Shown here piece after piece: positions 16,556-26,869 of a DNA stretch of 64,000 nt. The position numbers were made by a program, and so were the translations under genes. The stretch comes from [Eubacterium] eligens ATCC 27750. Lineage in GTDB: Bacteria > Bacillota > Clostridia > Lachnospirales > Lachnospiraceae. Within the stretch, counting starts at the first letter, position 1. Every line of letters begins with the position of its first letter. The DNA lies in NCBI RefSeq assembly GCF_000146185.1, contig NC_012778.1, positions 1,681,001 through 1,745,000 on the forward strand. The letters are read 5' to 3'. The notes below the pieces were generated by a model that saw nothing but the letters and a program-made list of their open reading frames with translations, did no database searches and was not told the DNA's origin.

Positions 16556-16595
16556 AAAACGAGCTGGACGTTTAATTACCATCCAGCTCGTTTTT
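16556..16595. terminator. bidirectional rho-independent terminator
   Basis: A 13-bp stem (AAAACGAGCTGGA with TCCAGCTCGTTTT) encloses a 13-nt loop, followed by T on the plus strand and by a T-run on the minus strand. It separates the convergent bile salt hydrolase and hipA genes, and it overlaps the last codons and stop of hipA (stop at 16572). Confidence 0.9.
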
Positions 16596-17699
16596 AACAC
16601 ATTTTTCTATGTCGTACGCAATCTCAGTGCATATATCTTTTCCTATTCCTGCTGCTGTTCCAACAGCAGCCAGCTCCTTAATTCCTGGATTTCTTCCATT
16701 GCCGTCTACTGTAGTAGTATGTTCCCCATAATATGTCGTACTATAAGTCAGGTCATATGCCGGGCTTAGTCTCCAGCCATCATTATTTTCATCATATATA
16801 AATGTAAAATTCTTTGAATGATCATCTCTGTTATGTGCAAACACATTAAAACACATTCGTCGGTACATATTCTCTATATCATGCTTATTGTCCCTTGTTA
16901 ATATTTTTGTTAATTTCATAAGTTGGTGATAATCCATATTGGGCTGCCTGAAATCCAGTTCAAGAAGCGCTGCTGCTGTAAGCATATGGATTCTGTGTTC
17001 TCCAAATGAATCATTCTTACGATCAAATCTTTTAGTTCCAAAATATCCATCACATATATCAGATGGAAAAAGTCTGGTCTCTTCCATATCAATTCCACAC
17101 TGCTTTGCACACTGTGAATATCGGTATTCCATCAGCCCCGCATTCTTTCCATCAACATGAGCAGGAAACTTGATAATCCAATCCTCGCCATCTATCTTAG
17201 TCATAATTTTAGGTCTTGCTCCACCACTTGTTCCACCAAGCCTGTATAATTCATCAAGCTTGTCAGAATATTCAGTATTAAGAATTTTCTGACACTGTTC
17301 AGATAATTCATCAAGACTGCTGAGTTTTTCCTGCTTTGGCATATCCAATTCCGGTCTGTATGTTAATGCTCCCATTCCTGATTCTCCAACAATTGCAAGC
17401 CTGTCAAGCATACTCACATTGTCTATATTACATCCCTTTTCTTTTAACATCCTGTCAAGCAGCAGCTGTCCCCATGCATCAGGCAGACTGTCTGCAAATA
17501 CTCCCCATAAACCATTAAAATATTCTTTAACAGGGACACATACTTTCTTTTCAAGGGGCAATGAAAACGGACTTATTGAAAATCCGTTCTCCAGCCATTC
17601 ATCTGCATATTCAAATGCAGCCTTTCTTTCGTTCGTCATAGCAAGAGTTCCAACAAGCCTGTCATGATAAAAAACATTTATAACTCTATCTTCTCTCAT
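16572..17699 (-). CDS. hipA: HipA-family serine/threonine kinase toxin
   Basis: A 375-residue HipA-like kinase. It has an N-terminal subdomain (about 6-110), a Gly/Ser loop GGTSGGARPK (155-164, Ser158 matching the autophosphorylated loop serine of HipA), the catalytic segment HNRDDHSKNF (289-298) and the metal-binding AYDLTYS (Asp316). In E. coli, HipA phosphorylates glutamyl-tRNA synthetase and induces dormancy. This protein is shorter than the E. coli enzyme (about 440), but no key motif is missing. Its start overlaps hipB by 14 nt, with GGAGG inside the hipB 3' end, so the toxin is coupled to its antitoxin. The target kinase substrate is unknown here. Confidence 0.9.
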   Translation of the reverse strand: MREDRVINVFYHDRLVGTLAMTNERKAAFEYADEWLENGFSISPFSLPLEKKVCVPVKEYFNGLWGVFADSLPDAWGQLLLDRMLKEKGCNIDNVSMLDRLAIVGESGMGALTYRPELDMPKQEKLSSLDELSEQCQKILNTEYSDKLDELYRLGGTSGGARPKIMTKIDGEDWIIKFPAHVDGKNAGLMEYRYSQCAKQCGIDMEETRLFPSDICDGYFGTKRFDRKNDSFGEHRIHMLTAAALLELDFRQPNMDYHQLMKLTKILTRDNKHDIENMYRRMCFNVFAHNRDDHSKNFTFIYDENNDGWRLSPAYDLTYSTTYYGEHTTTVDGNGRNPGIKELAAVGTAAGIGKDICTEIAYDIEKCVKNELDGN

Positions 17700-17964
17700 T
17701 AATTACCTCCTCAATACTGTTATAAGGAATCTCCGTAAAAATGTTTCTTAAATCATCAGCGATATTAAGTGCTACAGCTATCTTAGTCAGCGATAACAGT
17801 GAAATCTGTCCTGTTGTTTCAAATCTTTTTATCGAGCCAAGACTGACATTGCTAATCTTAGAAAGCTTCTCCTGTGAAATGGAGCGTCTTTTTCTTATTA
17901 GTCTTACCCTGTCAGCTATTTTTTTATCCAGTTCTTCACATGTCTCCCAGACATATTCATTCAT
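17686..17964 (-). CDS. hipB: HipB-type HTH antitoxin
   Basis: I choose the ATG at 17964, which has AAGGAGA upstream, over the TTG at 17988. The 92-residue product carries an XRE-type helix-turn-helix (RLIRKRRSISQEKLSK, then VSLGSIKRFETTG). HipB proteins bind and neutralise HipA and repress their own operon. The A/T-rich upstream region contains short inverted motifs such as TTATAG/CTATAA (about 18031-18054) that may serve as operators. The gene order antitoxin then toxin is standard. The Lon-like AAA gene lies divergently upstream. Confidence 0.88.
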   Translation of the reverse strand: MNEYVWETCEELDKKIADRVRLIRKRRSISQEKLSKISNVSLGSIKRFETTGQISLLSLTKIAVALNIADDLRNIFTEIPYNSIEEVINERR

Positions 17965-18093
17965 ATATTGATCTCTCCTTATGTGCAAACATATATATAA
18001 TATATTAGCCGGTTTTCTGATATATATGCATTTATAGCTAATATTTTATCTATAATTATTATAGCACATAACTTAATATATTCAATCCTCTCC

Positions 18094-21568: not shown

Positions 21569-22282
21569 TCACAAAATACTCATATGTAATTGTCTGAGTC
21601 CGTCTATTTCATCACACAATTCCCTGCTTGAGCAAGTTGAACAATCCATTGTAAGACCGTTAAATATGTTGTTTAAGGAGTCAGTTATCTGTTCACATCT
21701 GTGTGCTTCACTTTTTAAAAATATGTAATCAATATCCTGCTCCGTGACAAAATATATGCTTACAGCCTCAACCTCAGGACGCTTCCTGTAGGCATTGATA
21801 AGCCCCTGTCCTACCGCTGCAAAATTAATCCCATGCGAAACTGCTTCCTTACTCACTCTCACAGGTTCTCTTTCCCTGACTGCTGATATTCTCATCATAT
21901 ATCCTTTAGGAAATGCATGGTATCTTACATAATCAGTTGCCCTCATTGAAGCATACAGTGCATTATCATCATGATTCTTAATATATTCACCATCCAGCCT
22001 GATTACAGTAATTCTTGCATATGAAATATCATTCTTAATATCACACAGGTCATCACCCACAAGATACACAGCATCTTCCGGCACAAGTTCCTCATCCTGT
22101 GTAAATGCAATGGCACTTACCGCTGCATTGCTCCCACCGCCAAGCTCATAAACCATCTCACTTTTAAGGATAAGATTCTCTTTATCAGTCATCTCCCACA
22201 CTCTCTGTAATGGAAGTCTCTTTGCTCCATGATTTTCAAGCATTGATGTCAGCTTCTTTATCTCACCATCATATAAATCCAT
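21569..22282 (-). CDS. small protein possibly related to CO dehydrogenase/acetyl-CoA synthase beta subunit
   Basis: A soluble 237-residue protein, last gene of the CooC/HgdB/HgdC operon. It has no transmembrane helix. Near the C terminus lies a cysteine cluster, MDCSTCSSRELCDEI (Cys214, Cys217, Cys223), suitable for a metal or Fe-S site, preceded by a region with FVTEQDIDYIFLKS. I recall similar proteins being annotated as CdhC/AcsB-like, and the CooC-type ATPase in the operon fits a nickel or Fe-S maturation theme, but the match from reading alone is weak. It lacks the size of a real acetyl-CoA synthase (about 700 residues). It could be a specialised carrier or electron-transfer subunit. Confidence 0.5.
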   Translation of the reverse strand: MDLYDGEIKKLTSMLENHGAKRLPLQRVWEMTDKENLILKSEMVYELGGGSNAAVSAIAFTQDEELVPEDAVYLVGDDLCDIKNDISYARITVIRLDGEYIKNHDDNALYASMRATDYVRYHAFPKGYMMRISAVREREPVRVSKEAVSHGINFAAVGQGLINAYRKRPEVEAVSIYFVTEQDIDYIFLKSEAHRCEQITDSLNNIFNGLTMDCSTCSSRELCDEIDGLRQLHMSIL

Positions 22283-22330
22283 CGGCTGTTTCTGCCCTTC
22301 CTGTCATTCTTTCTGATACTGCCTCTGTTG

Positions 22331-22525
22331 TCACTCTTTCTGCTCTTCCTGCTTATGCTTCTTCGCCTCGCGCCTGTTCTTTGACCAGTTATAATATGCT
22401 GTAAGCGGCTTGATTAAAGATGCCGCAAACTTCATATCAAGATTAAAGAAATATATAACAAGAGTGAGAAAAAAAAGCACAACAAGCACGATTGCTATAA
22501 TTGCCAGCACTTTTAATACTATCAT
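22331..22525 (-). CDS. 64-residue single-span membrane protein
   Basis: One N-terminal transmembrane helix (about 2-27) is followed by a basic Lys/Arg/Glu-rich cytoplasmic tail. Its ATG overlaps the stop codon of the activase gene as ATGA, and AAGGGAAG precedes it, so it is translationally coupled and clearly part of the operon. It may anchor the dehydratase-like complex to the membrane, which is inference. No family recognised. Confidence 0.7.
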   Translation of the reverse strand: MIVLKVLAIIAIVLVVLFFLTLVIYFFNLDMKFAASLIKPLTAYYNWSKNRREAKKHKQEEQKE

Positions 22526-23316
22526 ACATTACTTCCCTTCTGTCTTGCATATTCTGCAGCACCTAATGCTCCCATAAGCTGTGGGTCTGTCGGCAGATCC
22601 ACTACATTTATCTTAAGAACCTTCTCTATTGCTTTCTTCAAGCCTTCATTCTTGGCACATCCACCTGTAAGTGTAACGCTGTCAGCCGCACCTGCTTTCT
22701 TAGCCATGACAAAGCATCTCTTAGCAACCGATAACTGTATTCCTGCCGCTATCTCCTCCATAGGCTTACCCTCACCTACTAACGAGATAACCTCACTCTC
22801 TGCAAATACCGCGCACTGTGCTGTTATTGGAATCACGTTCTTCGCCGTAAGTGACAGATTAGAAAATTCATCTAAAGACATCTCAAATGCTCTTGCCATA
22901 GATTCAAAAAATCTTCCCGTTCCTGCTGCACATTTGTCATTCATCGCAAAATTAAGCACAGTTCCATCTGTGTCAATCGCAATTCCCTTAACATCCTGAC
23001 CGCCGATATCAATAATCGCCTTAACCGATGGGTCAGTCACATGAACTCCCATAGCATGACAGCTTATCTCTGATATATTCTCATCTGCAAACGGTACTTT
23101 GTTTCTTCCGTAACCCGTACCAATCAGATATGTAAGCTCCTCTGCGCTGTTTAAACCGTCAACCTGGCTTACAGCCTCGTCAAGTGCATCCTTCGCACTA
23201 AGTACAGGATTAATCCTGCTTCTCTTAGTAACCGCAGCTGCGATTTTTCCATTCTCATCTATAATTACGCATTTGGTATATGTACTTCCTGCGTCACAAC
23301 CACCGAAATATTTCAT
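22522..23316 (-). CDS. 2-hydroxyacyl-CoA dehydratase activase (HgdC-like, BadF/BadG family)
   Basis: I start this at the ATG at 23316 (GGAAAGG upstream), giving 264 residues. It is an ASKHA-fold ATPase: phosphate loop GGCDAGSTYTK at the N terminus, IIDIGGQDVKG (101-111), and the two cysteines that bridge the [4Fe-4S] cluster of the HgdC homodimer, Cys129 (NDKCAAGTGRF) and Cys168 (TAQCAVFAESE). Such activases use ATP to inject a low-potential electron into a partner dehydratase or reductase. The partners here are most likely the two HgdB-like proteins encoded just upstream. Confidence 0.92.
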   Translation of the reverse strand: MKYFGGCDAGSTYTKCVIIDENGKIAAAVTKRSRINPVLSAKDALDEAVSQVDGLNSAEELTYLIGTGYGRNKVPFADENISEISCHAMGVHVTDPSVKAIIDIGGQDVKGIAIDTDGTVLNFAMNDKCAAGTGRFFESMARAFEMSLDEFSNLSLTAKNVIPITAQCAVFAESEVISLVGEGKPMEEIAAGIQLSVAKRCFVMAKKAGAADSVTLTGGCAKNEGLKKAIEKVLKINVVDLPTDPQLMGALGAAEYARQKGSNV

Positions 23317-23357
23317 TCTGCTATCCTTTCCTGCCACGTATGCAGCATACACACTTC

Positions 23358-24896
23358 TTACCAGCTCTTAGAATCGTCAAAATCCTCAAGTGATGGGTCA
23401 AGCGGTTCTTCCCTGAAAACAGTTCTCATATATCTGTTAATCTCCGTTCTCATGTCTCTTCTTGTTCCATCCTCAGGACACATAAGATTGTGCGTTACCC
23501 ATATTAAATGAATTCCATGTTTTCTCGCTTCTTCCTCAAATAGACCATGATATCCTGACATTGATTTGCAGCCCATATGAACATACATGATTACTATATC
23601 AATATTAAACATTTCGCAGAAACGCCAGAGTGCCTCTACACCTGTCTCATAACCGCCGTTAGAGCGGTTTCTCATAATCATGTTCTCATACAGATATGCA
23701 AGGTCTAACATTGCCTGGTGCTTATCCTCTGTGTTGACCATCTCTGTAGACACCATACTTAACATATCTGCAATAGTTACAACACCCCAGCAGTTAAGAA
23801 GCCAGATTGGGAGTGCCGTATAATATGCAGCCTGAACGCCCCATGTCATGGCTCTGTGGCGGTACTCCTTCGCCGCCATCTCTTTACTCTTATATGCATC
23901 AAGTGCCATCTTAGTAAGCTTCTTATCCATATCAAGGAATGCCTGATTTCTTCCACCGGCAGCCTGATATACACCATATCTGTAGAGTGCAAGCGTTACG
24001 CCCATAACCTGCGGATAATCTGTCTTGGAAATCTCCATCCACTCTAAGAATTCCTCTGTCTCTGCATTAAACCGCTTCATACTCTTAAAGAATGCATCCC
24101 AGTCGAACTTCTCTCCAGTCTGTTCCTCTATGAAATGGATTGCATTGACAACCTCTTCTGCCGCATACTCCTGTACGCTTTCCTGCCTGTGTCTTATTGG
24201 CACAGCAAGCTGAAATGTAGGAATCTTAAATGACCTTGCTTCAATCCCGTTACCCATAAGGCTTCCGTCACATGTCGTATTACACTGCACGGCACAGCAG
24301 CCTATAAGCGGGAAATCATCAGCCAATGCAACACCAAGCTCAGCTGCCGGCATAGGACAGACATCTGATGGCACACCATACTGGTGTGTAACGTCAACAT
24401 AATAGCTTACTCCGTCCTGTGACATCATCGAGCTTGTATACACTGCAGGAACTTCCACTGACAACCATGTAAGGTTAGGAAAACCTCCCATCAGGGTACT
24501 CATCATATTTTCATCAAAAAGGACAATCTTGCTGTTTAGCTTCTTATCATTGCCGATAGCCGGGTCTGCCTTAAATATCTGTCCAAGCATCCCGCATATA
24601 TCAGTAACGATAAGTCCCAGTGCCTGATGCGCCATTCTAAGCTGAGTTCCTCTCATGCCCTCGGTATGCCTGTCCATGAAATCAGGCAATGCAAGATAAT
24701 TAATCATCCAGCGGTATCTGAAGAATCCCTTCATGTTATTAGGTTTTATTATAAATGTAATTAAAGTCTTCCAGTATCCAAGCCACCTTACATAGTCGTA
24801 CCATGTATCCTTCAATCCGCGCCATTCTCTTCTTCTCTTCGGCTTTTTGCCTGTATAGAATCTGCCGAGTGGCTCGCTTCCTATATTCTTAGACAT
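23358..24896 (-). CDS. 2-hydroxyacyl-CoA dehydratase/double-cubane family subunit (HgdB-like, large)
   Basis: A 512-residue soluble protein of the HgdB/BcrB family. It is longer than classical subunits (about 380-430), with a basic N-terminal extension (1-65). Cysteines are grouped as Cys180 (VCPMPAAELG) and Cys200, 201, 205, 209 (IGCCAVQCNTTCDGS). Further cysteines appear in MGCKSMSGYHG and HNLMCPEDGTRRDM in the last quarter. In this family Cys ligands hold a [4Fe-4S] or a double-cubane cluster that receives electrons from the activase. The gene is three bases from the other subunit gene and followed by the activase. The substrate is unknown. Confidence 0.85.
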   Translation of the reverse strand: MSKNIGSEPLGRFYTGKKPKRRREWRGLKDTWYDYVRWLGYWKTLITFIIKPNNMKGFFRYRWMINYLALPDFMDRHTEGMRGTQLRMAHQALGLIVTDICGMLGQIFKADPAIGNDKKLNSKIVLFDENMMSTLMGGFPNLTWLSVEVPAVYTSSMMSQDGVSYYVDVTHQYGVPSDVCPMPAAELGVALADDFPLIGCCAVQCNTTCDGSLMGNGIEARSFKIPTFQLAVPIRHRQESVQEYAAEEVVNAIHFIEEQTGEKFDWDAFFKSMKRFNAETEEFLEWMEISKTDYPQVMGVTLALYRYGVYQAAGGRNQAFLDMDKKLTKMALDAYKSKEMAAKEYRHRAMTWGVQAAYYTALPIWLLNCWGVVTIADMLSMVSTEMVNTEDKHQAMLDLAYLYENMIMRNRSNGGYETGVEALWRFCEMFNIDIVIMYVHMGCKSMSGYHGLFEEEARKHGIHLIWVTHNLMCPEDGTRRDMRTEINRYMRTVFREEPLDPSLEDFDDSKSW

Positions 24897-24898
24897 AT

Positions 24899-26092
24899 TT
24901 ATAATTTCCTTCCTGCATTGATACGCTTAATCTCAAGGCTCTCAACAAATGCCTGTATTCTTGTTCTTAACTGTCCAGAAGTTCCGACAGCATAAGGTCT
25001 GTCAATTGAAAGAACAGGATAGCCGTATTTTTCTTTCATGACATGGAATGCCGAAGCCCTCTCATAGCCCCAGTAATCACAGAATTTAATCTGCTGATAT
25101 ATAAGGCCATCCGCCTTATACTCTTTAGCTATTGCGTCAACATACTCCTGTCTCTCGATAATCTTTTCTGTATTCATGAATCTTGGACACTGTCCCCACT
25201 TCATATACTGTCTGCATATCTGTGTAAGAACATCCTCTGTATCGTTAAGAATAATCTCATCTCTTCCCGGAAGTGAACCAAAACAGAATCTGTCAGCCAC
25301 AACCAGTGCACCTGCCTCCTCAGCAAGCTTTATAAGCTCAGGGTTATCAATCTCTGAACCAACCATTACGACCCTTGCCCTGTAATTACATTTTTTATCA
25401 GGTTCACGCGTCTTAAGCTCCTCAAGTGTTTCTTCGAGCTTTTCTATAAGTGCCTCTTTCGGGCAACAGTAGGTTGCAAGACACAGAACCGCGAATTCAT
25501 ACCCAGTAATTCTTGGATTTTCTTCTTTTCTGTAATCACCGATGCTTCTTATAAGCCGGCTTATCTTATTCTGCAATTCTACTGACTTTCTAAGTGCATC
25601 ATCTGATATGTCTATTCCATATATATTATTAAGCGGTTCAAGCACATGAAGTCTCATCTGCTTAACAAAATGTCTTAACGCCGTCTCATCATTCTTCATC
25701 GGAACATCTGAATATTCCACGAAGAATTTTTCTTTCTCTATAAGGTGCTGTCTCTCAATATTCTCTACGCACCTGTTCATCTGCGCACATGCATCCGGCG
25801 CAATTATACAGTCAAGAAAGTTAAATCCGCCCTCAATTGCTCTCTCTAATATCGCACGACATCCCTCGCATAGCATACTGCTCATGTAATATGTACCCAT
25901 CTCAATAGAACCTGTACGGGGTGCACGCAGTCTTACCGAAAAGCTGCCCGGAAGATTAATAAGCGGCTCCGGTATCTGGAAACAGACTGCACCGATTGCA
26001 ATATCACCTTTTGCCTGCGCCTGCCTTACAAGATCGTTATTAACTTCCTCCAACAGCTTCTCAAAATAATACAGATTAGCTAAATCCTTCAC
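24899..26092 (-). CDS. 2-hydroxyacyl-CoA dehydratase/double-cubane family subunit (HgdB-like, small)
   Basis: A 397-residue HgdB-family protein that starts with GTG behind an excellent AGAGGAGG. The N-terminal third holds Cys37, Cys75 and Cys78 (SSMLCEGCRA), Cys95, Cys102 and Cys108, and the C-terminal part has GQCPRFM and FCDYWGYERASA, which resembles the second-domain motif that binds the cluster in double-cubane proteins. The pair of dissimilar subunits, both cysteine rich, suggests a heterodimer. It follows the CooC-like gene by 12 nt. Typical reactions of the family are 2-hydroxyacyl-CoA dehydration, benzoyl-CoA reduction or small-molecule reductions such as acetylene. None can be chosen from sequence. 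Confidence 0.86.
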   Translation of the reverse strand: MKDLANLYYFEKLLEEVNNDLVRQAQAKGDIAIGAVCFQIPEPLINLPGSFSVRLRAPRTGSIEMGTYYMSSMLCEGCRAILERAIEGGFNFLDCIIAPDACAQMNRCVENIERQHLIEKEKFFVEYSDVPMKNDETALRHFVKQMRLHVLEPLNNIYGIDISDDALRKSVELQNKISRLIRSIGDYRKEENPRITGYEFAVLCLATYCCPKEALIEKLEETLEELKTREPDKKCNYRARVVMVGSEIDNPELIKLAEEAGALVVADRFCFGSLPGRDEIILNDTEDVLTQICRQYMKWGQCPRFMNTEKIIERQEYVDAIAKEYKADGLIYQQIKFCDYWGYERASAFHVMKEKYGYPVLSIDRPYAVGTSGQLRTRIQAFVESLEIKRINAGRKL

Positions 26093-26104
26093 ATTTACCT
26101 CCTC

Positions 26105-26869
26105 TTACAATATTCCCATATTAACAAGTGCTTTCTTTGCACCCTCGACAATAATCGCATCATCAGGGAGATTGAATACATTTTCACCAAGCACATCTGC
26201 CTGCGCAAGCTTGGAATCGCTCTGTATTACTGAAAGCAGCTCAAGGCCGCCGATATCCATAAGCTTCGCAACCTCCATATCCGGTATTCTGTTAGCGATA
26301 ACTCCGATTCTGTCATACATTACAAGCTCATCTGCAACTTTCTTGATTGTCTGCACAACCTGGCATCCCTTCTTGCTCGCGTCAGTAACAAGCAGCAGAT
26401 GTGTTACCTTCTCCATAACTCTTCTGTTAATCTGCTCTATTCCTGCTTCTCCATCAATTACAACATAATCAAACTTATCTGAAAGCATTGTGATAACTTC
26501 TTTAAGATATGAATTAATCTTGCAGTAACAGCCTGCTGTCTCAGGTCTTCCTATTGCGATAAATGCATATCCGTCCTGTTCAACAACTGCATCCATTATC
26601 TCGTATTTGGCTTCTCCAAGTAACTCCACAGCAGTCTTGGTATCTCCGTCTTCAACATTCTTGATTACTTCTTTTCTTATATCATCTATAGTCTTTTCCA
26701 CTTCAACATTAAGCACTGTAGAAAGTCCGACCGCAGGGTCAGCGTCAATCGCAAGTATCTTCTTGTCAGGATATGCCTCAACAAGAAGTTTTACAATAAC
26801 TCCCGCTAAAGAAGTCTTACCAACTCCGCCTTTTCCTGCTACTGCTATAATCTGTGTTTTCTTATCCAT
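26105..26869 (-). CDS. cooC: CooC-like P-loop ATPase (nickel/Fe-S enzyme maturation)
   Basis: A 254-residue MinD/NifH-fold ATPase. The deviant Walker A GKGGVGKT (12-19) is present, the CxC motif Cys114-Tyr-Cys116 (ETAGCYCKIN) corresponds to the metal-binding CxC of CooC, and VVIDGEAGIEQINRR is the Walker B/switch region. CooC proteins load nickel into carbon monoxide dehydrogenase, yet no CO dehydrogenase catalytic subunit is present in this window. It is the first gene of the operon with the two HgdB-like proteins, an activase, a small membrane protein and a cysteine-cluster protein, so here it may assemble the metal centre of the HgdB-like enzyme. Confidence 0.88.
   Translation of the reverse strand: MDKKTQIIAVAGKGGVGKTSLAGVIVKLLVEAYPDKKILAIDADPAVGLSTVLNVEVEKTIDDIRKEVIKNVEDGDTKTAVELLGEAKYEIMDAVVEQDGYAFIAIGRPETAGCYCKINSYLKEVITMLSDKFDYVVIDGEAGIEQINRRVMEKVTHLLLVTDASKKGCQVVQTIKKVADELVMYDRIGVIANRIPDMEVAKLMDIGGLELLSVIQSDSKLAQADVLGENVFNLPDDAIIVEGAKKALVNMGIL

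Follow-up and report, generated by a model that had tools for sequence, protein, structure and literature searches.

The minus-strand operon at positions 21569-26869 of a 64,000-nucleotide stretch of the [Eubacterium] eligens ATCC 27750 genome (contig NC_012778.1; this whole stretch is called the window below) encodes a conserved, apparently uncharacterised reductase system of the benzoyl-CoA reductase (BCR)/2-hydroxyacyl-CoA dehydratase (HAD)/double-cubane cluster protein (DCCP) kind, found in the company of nickel proteins and together with a cut-down subunit of acetyl-CoA synthase (ACS). Our preferred reading, to which we give a probability of about one half, is that the operon specifies a double-cubane reductase, ATP-driven and of very low potential, in which one step depends on nickel and an ACS-like partner handles either CoA or metal. 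The ATP-driven Fe-S reductases of this superfamily carry out Birch-like reductions and radical dehydrations, and ACS forms a carbon-carbon bond on nickel; the operon, which is present in many gut bacteria, seems to join parts of both machineries. Its presence in genomes such as that of the host, where searches found no CO dehydrogenase (CODH) or full ACS, suggests that Lachnospiraceae and some relatives beyond this family possess a nickel enzyme that has gone unrecognised. No description of the operon was found in the literature searched, which comprised open-licence papers only. Several carriers are cultured strains, and the question is therefore directly testable.

Gene layout and phylogenetic distribution

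Six open reading frames (ORFs) were verified in this region, close-packed and all on the minus strand, as had been described in an earlier sequence-only reading of the window:

26105..26869, minus strand: CooC-like MinD/ParA-type ATPase, 254 aa; CxC at 114-116; best PDB match CooC (3kje)
24899..26092, minus strand: HgdB1, BzdN-like double-cubane subunit, 397 aa; GTG start; PF06050 E 4.5e-91
23358..24896, minus strand: HgdB2, BzdO/HadB/DCCP-fold subunit, 512 aa; PF06050 E 2.1e-40
22522..23316, minus strand: HgdC-type ATP-dependent activase, 264 aa; likely ATG start; TIGR00241; the ORF reaches a GTG at 23352
22331..22525, minus strand: mini membrane protein, 64 aa; single N-terminal hydrophobic helix
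21569..22282, minus strand: ACS middle-domain (A2)-like protein, 237 aa; C214-x2-C217-x5-C223-x9-H233; Pfam CdhC E 4.7e-9

The last protein is referred to as ACS-like or CdhC-like, and the two terms are equivalent in all counts. The GTG start with a Shine-Dalgarno sequence, assigned earlier to one of the subunits, is that of HgdB1 and is preceded by AGGAGG. The ATGA overlap (between the activase and mini genes) and the 12-nt gap (between CooC and HgdB1) are also as described, and the supposed 3-nt gap, that between HgdB1 and HgdB2, actually measures 2 nt. A genome-wide profile search of the host (2.83 Mb, three contigs) returned the HgdB pair as its only PF06050 proteins.

Scanning of named genomes with an alignment of HgdB2 revealed at least 565 relatives, and all locus counts given here refer to the best-scoring 80. 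CooC, HgdB1, HgdB2, the activase and the CdhC-like gene lie on one strand in 46 of the 80 loci, every one of which also contains the mini gene, and the gene order of the window is kept in 43 of these 46 (the CdhC-like gene comes first in two, and the activase appears as two ORFs in one). Among the other 34 loci, 20 end at a contig edge, 12 comprise the HgdB pair but, in the stretch examined, none of the genes for CooC, the activase and the CdhC-like protein (hereafter "split" loci), and two are arranged otherwise. The six-gene order is conserved far beyond chance, and the co-conservation to which the sequence-only reading had tied its interpretation is thereby established. In a survey of 200 Lachnospiraceae genomes, HgdB2 (E<1e-100) and the ACS-like protein were detected in an identical set of 18, leaving 182 that do not carry the operon; six more genomes match HgdB2 weakly (E 7e-11 to 5e-5), and we take these matches as general PF06050 relatives.

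Carriers were found in Lachnospiraceae, in Oscillospiraceae, in a bin named Solobacterium and in two records named Spirochaetes. One of the latter, labelled Treponema (L025), falls within Lachnospiraceae in the HgdB2 tree and may be a binning error. Of the named relatives retrieved, Eubacterium sp. AF22-9 is the closest (100% identity in HgdB2), and cultured carriers include Pseudobutyrivibrio xylanivorans DSM 14809 and Faecalicatena orotica. At four loci (L042:10478-11665, and also L043, L044 and L048) a DUF3829 gene is placed between the activase and the mini gene. Divergent copies of the operon are adjoined at L140:3433-5496 and L142:3777-6188 by flavoproteins related to bilirubin reductase and BaiCD, which score below the NCBIfam cutoff.

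The HgdB pair, the activase and the mini protein

HgdB1 is a clear member of PF06050 (306.4 bits, cutoff 28.4), with BzdN as the best PDB match. According to PMC11971306, the [8Fe-9S] cluster of BzdN is ligated by C36/73/100/263/293/327; these residues align with C37/75/102/270/302/338 of HgdB1, each of which is Cys in 74 or 75 of 75 homologues, and HgdB1 therefore possesses the complete six-cysteine ligand set that marks a BzdN/DCCP-type subunit. It stays below the NCBIfam equivalog cutoffs for double_cubane (155.3 bits, 350 required), BzdN (110.2, 453.8 required) and HadC (94.8, 700 required).

HgdB2 also belongs to PF06050 (139.8 bits, cutoff 28.4), and all 20 Foldseek matches of its model at E<=0.001 are BCR, HAD or DCCP chains. 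The profile matches are to DCCP (E 2e-9), MbdO (9e-7) and BzdO (2.1e-6), and the scores are again below the equivalog cutoffs (double_cubane 47.4 bits of 350, HadB 25.5 of 750, BzdO 18.5 of 448.6). A conserved N-terminal extension of ~150 residues is present. In our own reading of the alignments, C180, C209 and C443 are the putative counterparts of the [4Fe-4S] cysteines C95/128/380 of BzdO, with HMMER placing C209 one residue off C128 and aligning C443 only against MbdO. Further conserved cysteines are C201 (78/79), C205 and C369 (79/79 each) and C427 (74/79), the first two of which form, together with C209, the motif C201-x3-C205-x3-C209. Three residues past C209 HgdB2 has Ser; at the corresponding place, three residues past Cys128, BzdO has His131, located near the cluster-bound water (PMC11971306). 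Because of this replacement, the chemistry of HgdB2 should differ from that of BzdO.

The activase exceeds the TIGR00241 cutoff (223.2 bits against 125.4), and its PDB matches are headed by MbdQ (E 4.9e-60), followed by HadI and HgdC. The ORF spans 276 aa, the form starting at an internal ATG 264 aa, and most homologues have ~261-272 aa; since the shorter form suits most of these lengths, we consider the internal ATG the likely start. The two Fe-S cysteines noted earlier, C129 and C168 of the 264-aa form (C141 and C180 of the 276-aa ORF), are indeed retained, being Cys in 54/54 homologues checked, and presumably hold the bridging [4Fe-4S] cluster. At the level of family assignment, a BCR/HAD/DCCP-type reductase served by an ATP-dependent activase, as had been proposed, is borne out.

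The hydrophobic segment of the mini protein reaches a peak 19-residue Kyte-Doolittle mean of 3.5, from residue 6. Its gene accompanies the HgdB pair, following HgdB2, in 7 of the 12 split loci (L053-L056, L064, L092, L100), and this persistence is in keeping with a protein that anchors the pair in the membrane. The anchoring suggested by the sequence-only reading thus gains indirect support and would be a plausible role of the 64-residue protein.

The probable nickel link and the ACS-like protein

The CooC-like ATPase aligns with its best PDB match at E 2.8e-15, the CYC motifs of the two coinciding and the P-loop being kept. C114 and C116 are Cys in 53/53 homologues, so that both the P-loop and the CxC of a nickel ATPase are present and the CxC pointed out earlier is confirmed. 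HypA-family genes were found in 16 of the 80 loci (a BLAST cluster of which one representative was confirmed by Pfam) and HypB-like ORFs in five, upstream of CooC in L065-L068 and after HypA in L064, where the ORF is HypB according to NCBIfam. A His-rich metal-sensing repressor of the CsoR/RcnR family heads the operon in L050, and small His-rich proteins adjoin an HgdB pair in L141 and L143. The host itself encodes CooC, HypA and two HypB-like GTPases, and genome-wide it has no match to PF00374 hydrogenases, PF00449 ureases or full ACS (besides CODH, the nickel enzymes covered). A single PF03063 protein is encoded, which scores as a hybrid cluster protein (TIGR01703 703.3 bits, cutoff 360.8; CODH TIGR01702 27.2 bits of 478 required), and the statement that CODH is missing, made earlier for the window, holds for the whole host genome in PF03063 and ACS-model searches. 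The CxC and the HypA/HypB neighbours support the nickel link of the sequence-only reading; a nickel site in the HgdB pair itself is a hypothesis.

In 26 of the 80 loci we also found C0, a large Fe-S flavoprotein, mostly of 890-990 aa, with a GltD-like middle part. Matches with E<1e-200 occur in at least 15 of the 18 operon genomes and at least 24 of the 182 others (four candidates scored per genome); C0 is likely an electron supply that is not specific to the operon. CobW GTPases stand beside one split pair (L150) but were not counted, since they occur elsewhere in other genomes too.

The 237-aa protein matches ACS with an HMMER E of 1.2e-8 and has the fold of the ACS A2 domain, which is clear from both Foldseek and VIA-align; hhalign of the ACS-like alignment against five true ACS gave a probability of only 63.8 and E 6.6e-5 over 149 columns. 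These profile and fold matches confirm the relation to AcsB/CdhC that had been suspected. Cysteine columns common to the ACS-like protein and ACS appear in a single MAFFT alignment, in which the third Cys falls on the last of four ACS cysteines, and we assume that the latter hold the A-cluster. As HMMER, hhalign, Foldseek and VIA-align all end before these cysteines, their residue-by-residue equivalence is likely rather than proved. The ACS-like protein ends 14 residues after C223, and the CGCFEC of the five true ACS has no counterpart in it: it contains neither an A3 domain with the nickel-binding CGC motif nor the full cysteine set of ACS. The middle domain of ACS is a site of CoA interaction (PMC12289521, citing the C. 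autoethanogenum structure).

Given the observed gene set, its conservation, the folds, the ligand residues and the nickel-chaperone neighbours, our preferred reading could work as follows. By analogy with the family, ATP hydrolysis by the activase would drive electrons one at a time into HgdB1, where the [8Fe-9S] double-cubane would store them and pass them, as in BzdN, to HgdB2 with its putative catalytic [4Fe-4S] site; the four additional conserved cysteines of HgdB2 could bind an extra metal. CooC would deliver nickel, with HypA and HypB assisting it in several relatives. The 237-aa protein may represent the CoA-interacting, docking middle domain of ACS, cut just past the A-cluster-like cysteine motif, and would most likely present CoA or a CoA ester, or carry a nickel/Fe-S site, to HgdB2, with the mini protein possibly tying the HgdB pair to the membrane. 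A CoA thioester or a one-carbon compound is the most probable substrate. A bolder version, which we consider rather less likely, is a new class of nickel-containing ATP-driven reductases, in which the double-cubane store feeds a nickel/Fe-S site between HgdB2 and a cut-down ACS subunit with a partial A-cluster-like motif, combining nitrogenase-like and ACS-like chemistry on a CoA-bound or one-carbon substrate.

A number of observations weigh against the preferred reading. HypB is absent from 75 and HypA from 64 of the 80 loci, in the stretches examined, and the host genes are far from the operon, with HypA lying beside C0 at L146:8241-11362 (C1 ~1.33 Mb) and the tandem HypB-like GTPases at L169:8885-10265 (~0.70 Mb). 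HypA and C0, in several cases with HypB, form a module in operon-less genomes too, and in G049 and G153 the HypB-like genes lie in what appears by eye to be a hydrogenase operon; Hyp genes can hence serve other enzymes as well. Of the 18 genomes with the operon, four match PF00374 (three weakly) and two match PF00449 (one weakly), and six (G026, G056, G081, G148, G153, G164) contain CODH-family frames of more than 620 aa, which judging by length are probably true CODH; the remaining 11 would need another client for whatever nickel genes they possess. As to the proteins themselves, the HgdB2 model is of moderate quality (mean pLDDT 77.8), positions 427 and 201 of HgdB2 are not Cys in 5/79 and 1/79 homologues, and position 233 of the ACS-like protein is not His in 3/54.

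Alternative explanations and comparison with known systems

The split loci raise the possibility, which we hold tentatively, that the ACS-like protein belongs not to the enzyme but, with CooC, to a scaffold for building a nickel or Fe-S centre or inserting it into the HgdB pair, and that the enzyme proper consists of HgdB1-HgdB2, the mini protein and the activase. The HgdB pair is split off in 12 of the 80 loci, and this arrangement requires at least four label changes on the HgdB2 tree (58 rows); the ACS-like protein is encoded in 21 of 22 genomes (the host and 21 with split or cut loci), the miss being a 1.3-Mb genome record. G204 has a single ACS-like gene and combines the full set L078 with a second pair, L031, which is split; a trans action of the ACS-like protein, CooC and the activase, with one set serving two HgdB pairs, is accordingly possible. 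AcsF, a CooC-family ATPase, inserts nickel in ACS and offers an analogy. On the other hand, a true subunit could equally be shared in trans, and the activase is shared too, though as far as we know it is no maturase. Downstream of a split HgdB pair of Pseudobutyrivibrio we observed, at L040:11540-15279, a NifH-like gene and two genes resembling nitrogenase component 1 (Pfam).

An ordinary HAD or a relative of DCCP, accompanied by an incidental CooC-like ATPase and free of nickel, appears unlikely to us. Both HgdB proteins and the activase do fall in PF06050 and TIGR00241, and CooC has relatives among other MinD/ParA ATPases, but neither HgdB1 nor HgdB2 reaches the cutoff of any named NCBIfam equivalog, and the invariant CxC of CooC, the nearby HypA/HypB genes and an ACS-like protein as constant partner are, to our knowledge, not features of 2-hydroxyacyl-CoA dehydratases or DCCP.

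Very improbable, finally, is a non-canonical CODH/ACS that would fix CO2 or CO into acetyl-CoA in Lachnospiraceae lacking CODH/ACS. PMC7000372 presents an open case in the same family, the lachnospiral acetogen 'Ca. Galacturonibacter soehngenii', with CODH activity, 13CO2 incorporation in the acetate carboxyl and no canonical CODH/ACS genes. The ACS-like domain, CooC, the HypA/HypB neighbours and a low-potential electron source would suit such an enzyme. However, G144, identified here as this organism, has no HgdB2 or ACS-like match in the 200-genome survey, and in the ACS-like protein the part of A3 that binds nickel is missing; PF12225 (shown as DUF5981), which we take to be the MetV-type partner of methylenetetrahydrofolate reductase, exceeds the cutoff in 0/18 operon genomes against 13/182 others, and a strong match (E<1e-50) to CdhD of the corrinoid iron-sulfur protein occurs in 1/18 (G026) against 21/182. 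With both proteins missing from G144 and the methyl-branch and corrinoid partners mostly absent, it is improbable that the operon stands in for CODH/ACS, and the idea that it is the missing CODH/ACS of 'Ca. G. soehngenii' is not supported.

Our analysis thus sustains part of the sequence-only interpretation, namely the reductase type, the co-conservation, the nickel link and the ACS relation. The operon is flanked in the window by a chemotaxis receptor and an amidase, which look unrelated to it. Further away, at 16572-17988, a HipA-family protein (Pfam) and a small upstream ORF, helix-turn-helix-like by eye and lacking a Pfam match, are possibly a toxin-antitoxin-type pair.

Compared with AcsB/CdhC among known systems, the 237-aa protein lacks A1, most of A3 and the CGC motif, and the operon comprises no CODH or corrinoid partner. 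CooC of CODH/ACS systems is the best PDB match of the ATPase and shares its P-loop and CYC motif, but no CODH or full ACS was found in the host genome. HadBCI, the (R)-2-hydroxyisocaproyl-CoA dehydratase, has the same fold and the same activase family; it is set apart by the double-cubane ligand set of HgdB1 and by the lack of a CoA-transferase gene, correctly reported earlier for the operon (a genome-wide search was not made). DCCP and DCCP-R resemble the operon in the double-cubane cysteines and the ATP-dependent activase; DCCP reduces small molecules and its physiological role is described as unclear in PMC11971306. It is a homodimer; in the operon the two subunits differ from each other, and CooC and an ACS-like protein accompany them. 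The class I BCRs BzdNOPQ and MbdONPQ share with the operon a heterodimeric PF06050 pair with N-like double-cubane ligands and, in our alignment, three O-like [4Fe-4S] cysteines, as well as an ASKHA activase with MbdQ as the best PDB match. HgdB2 is distant from their O subunits, with its N-terminal extension, its extra conserved cysteines and no His three residues past C209, and the operon has one activase gene instead of two, to which CooC and the ACS-like protein are added.

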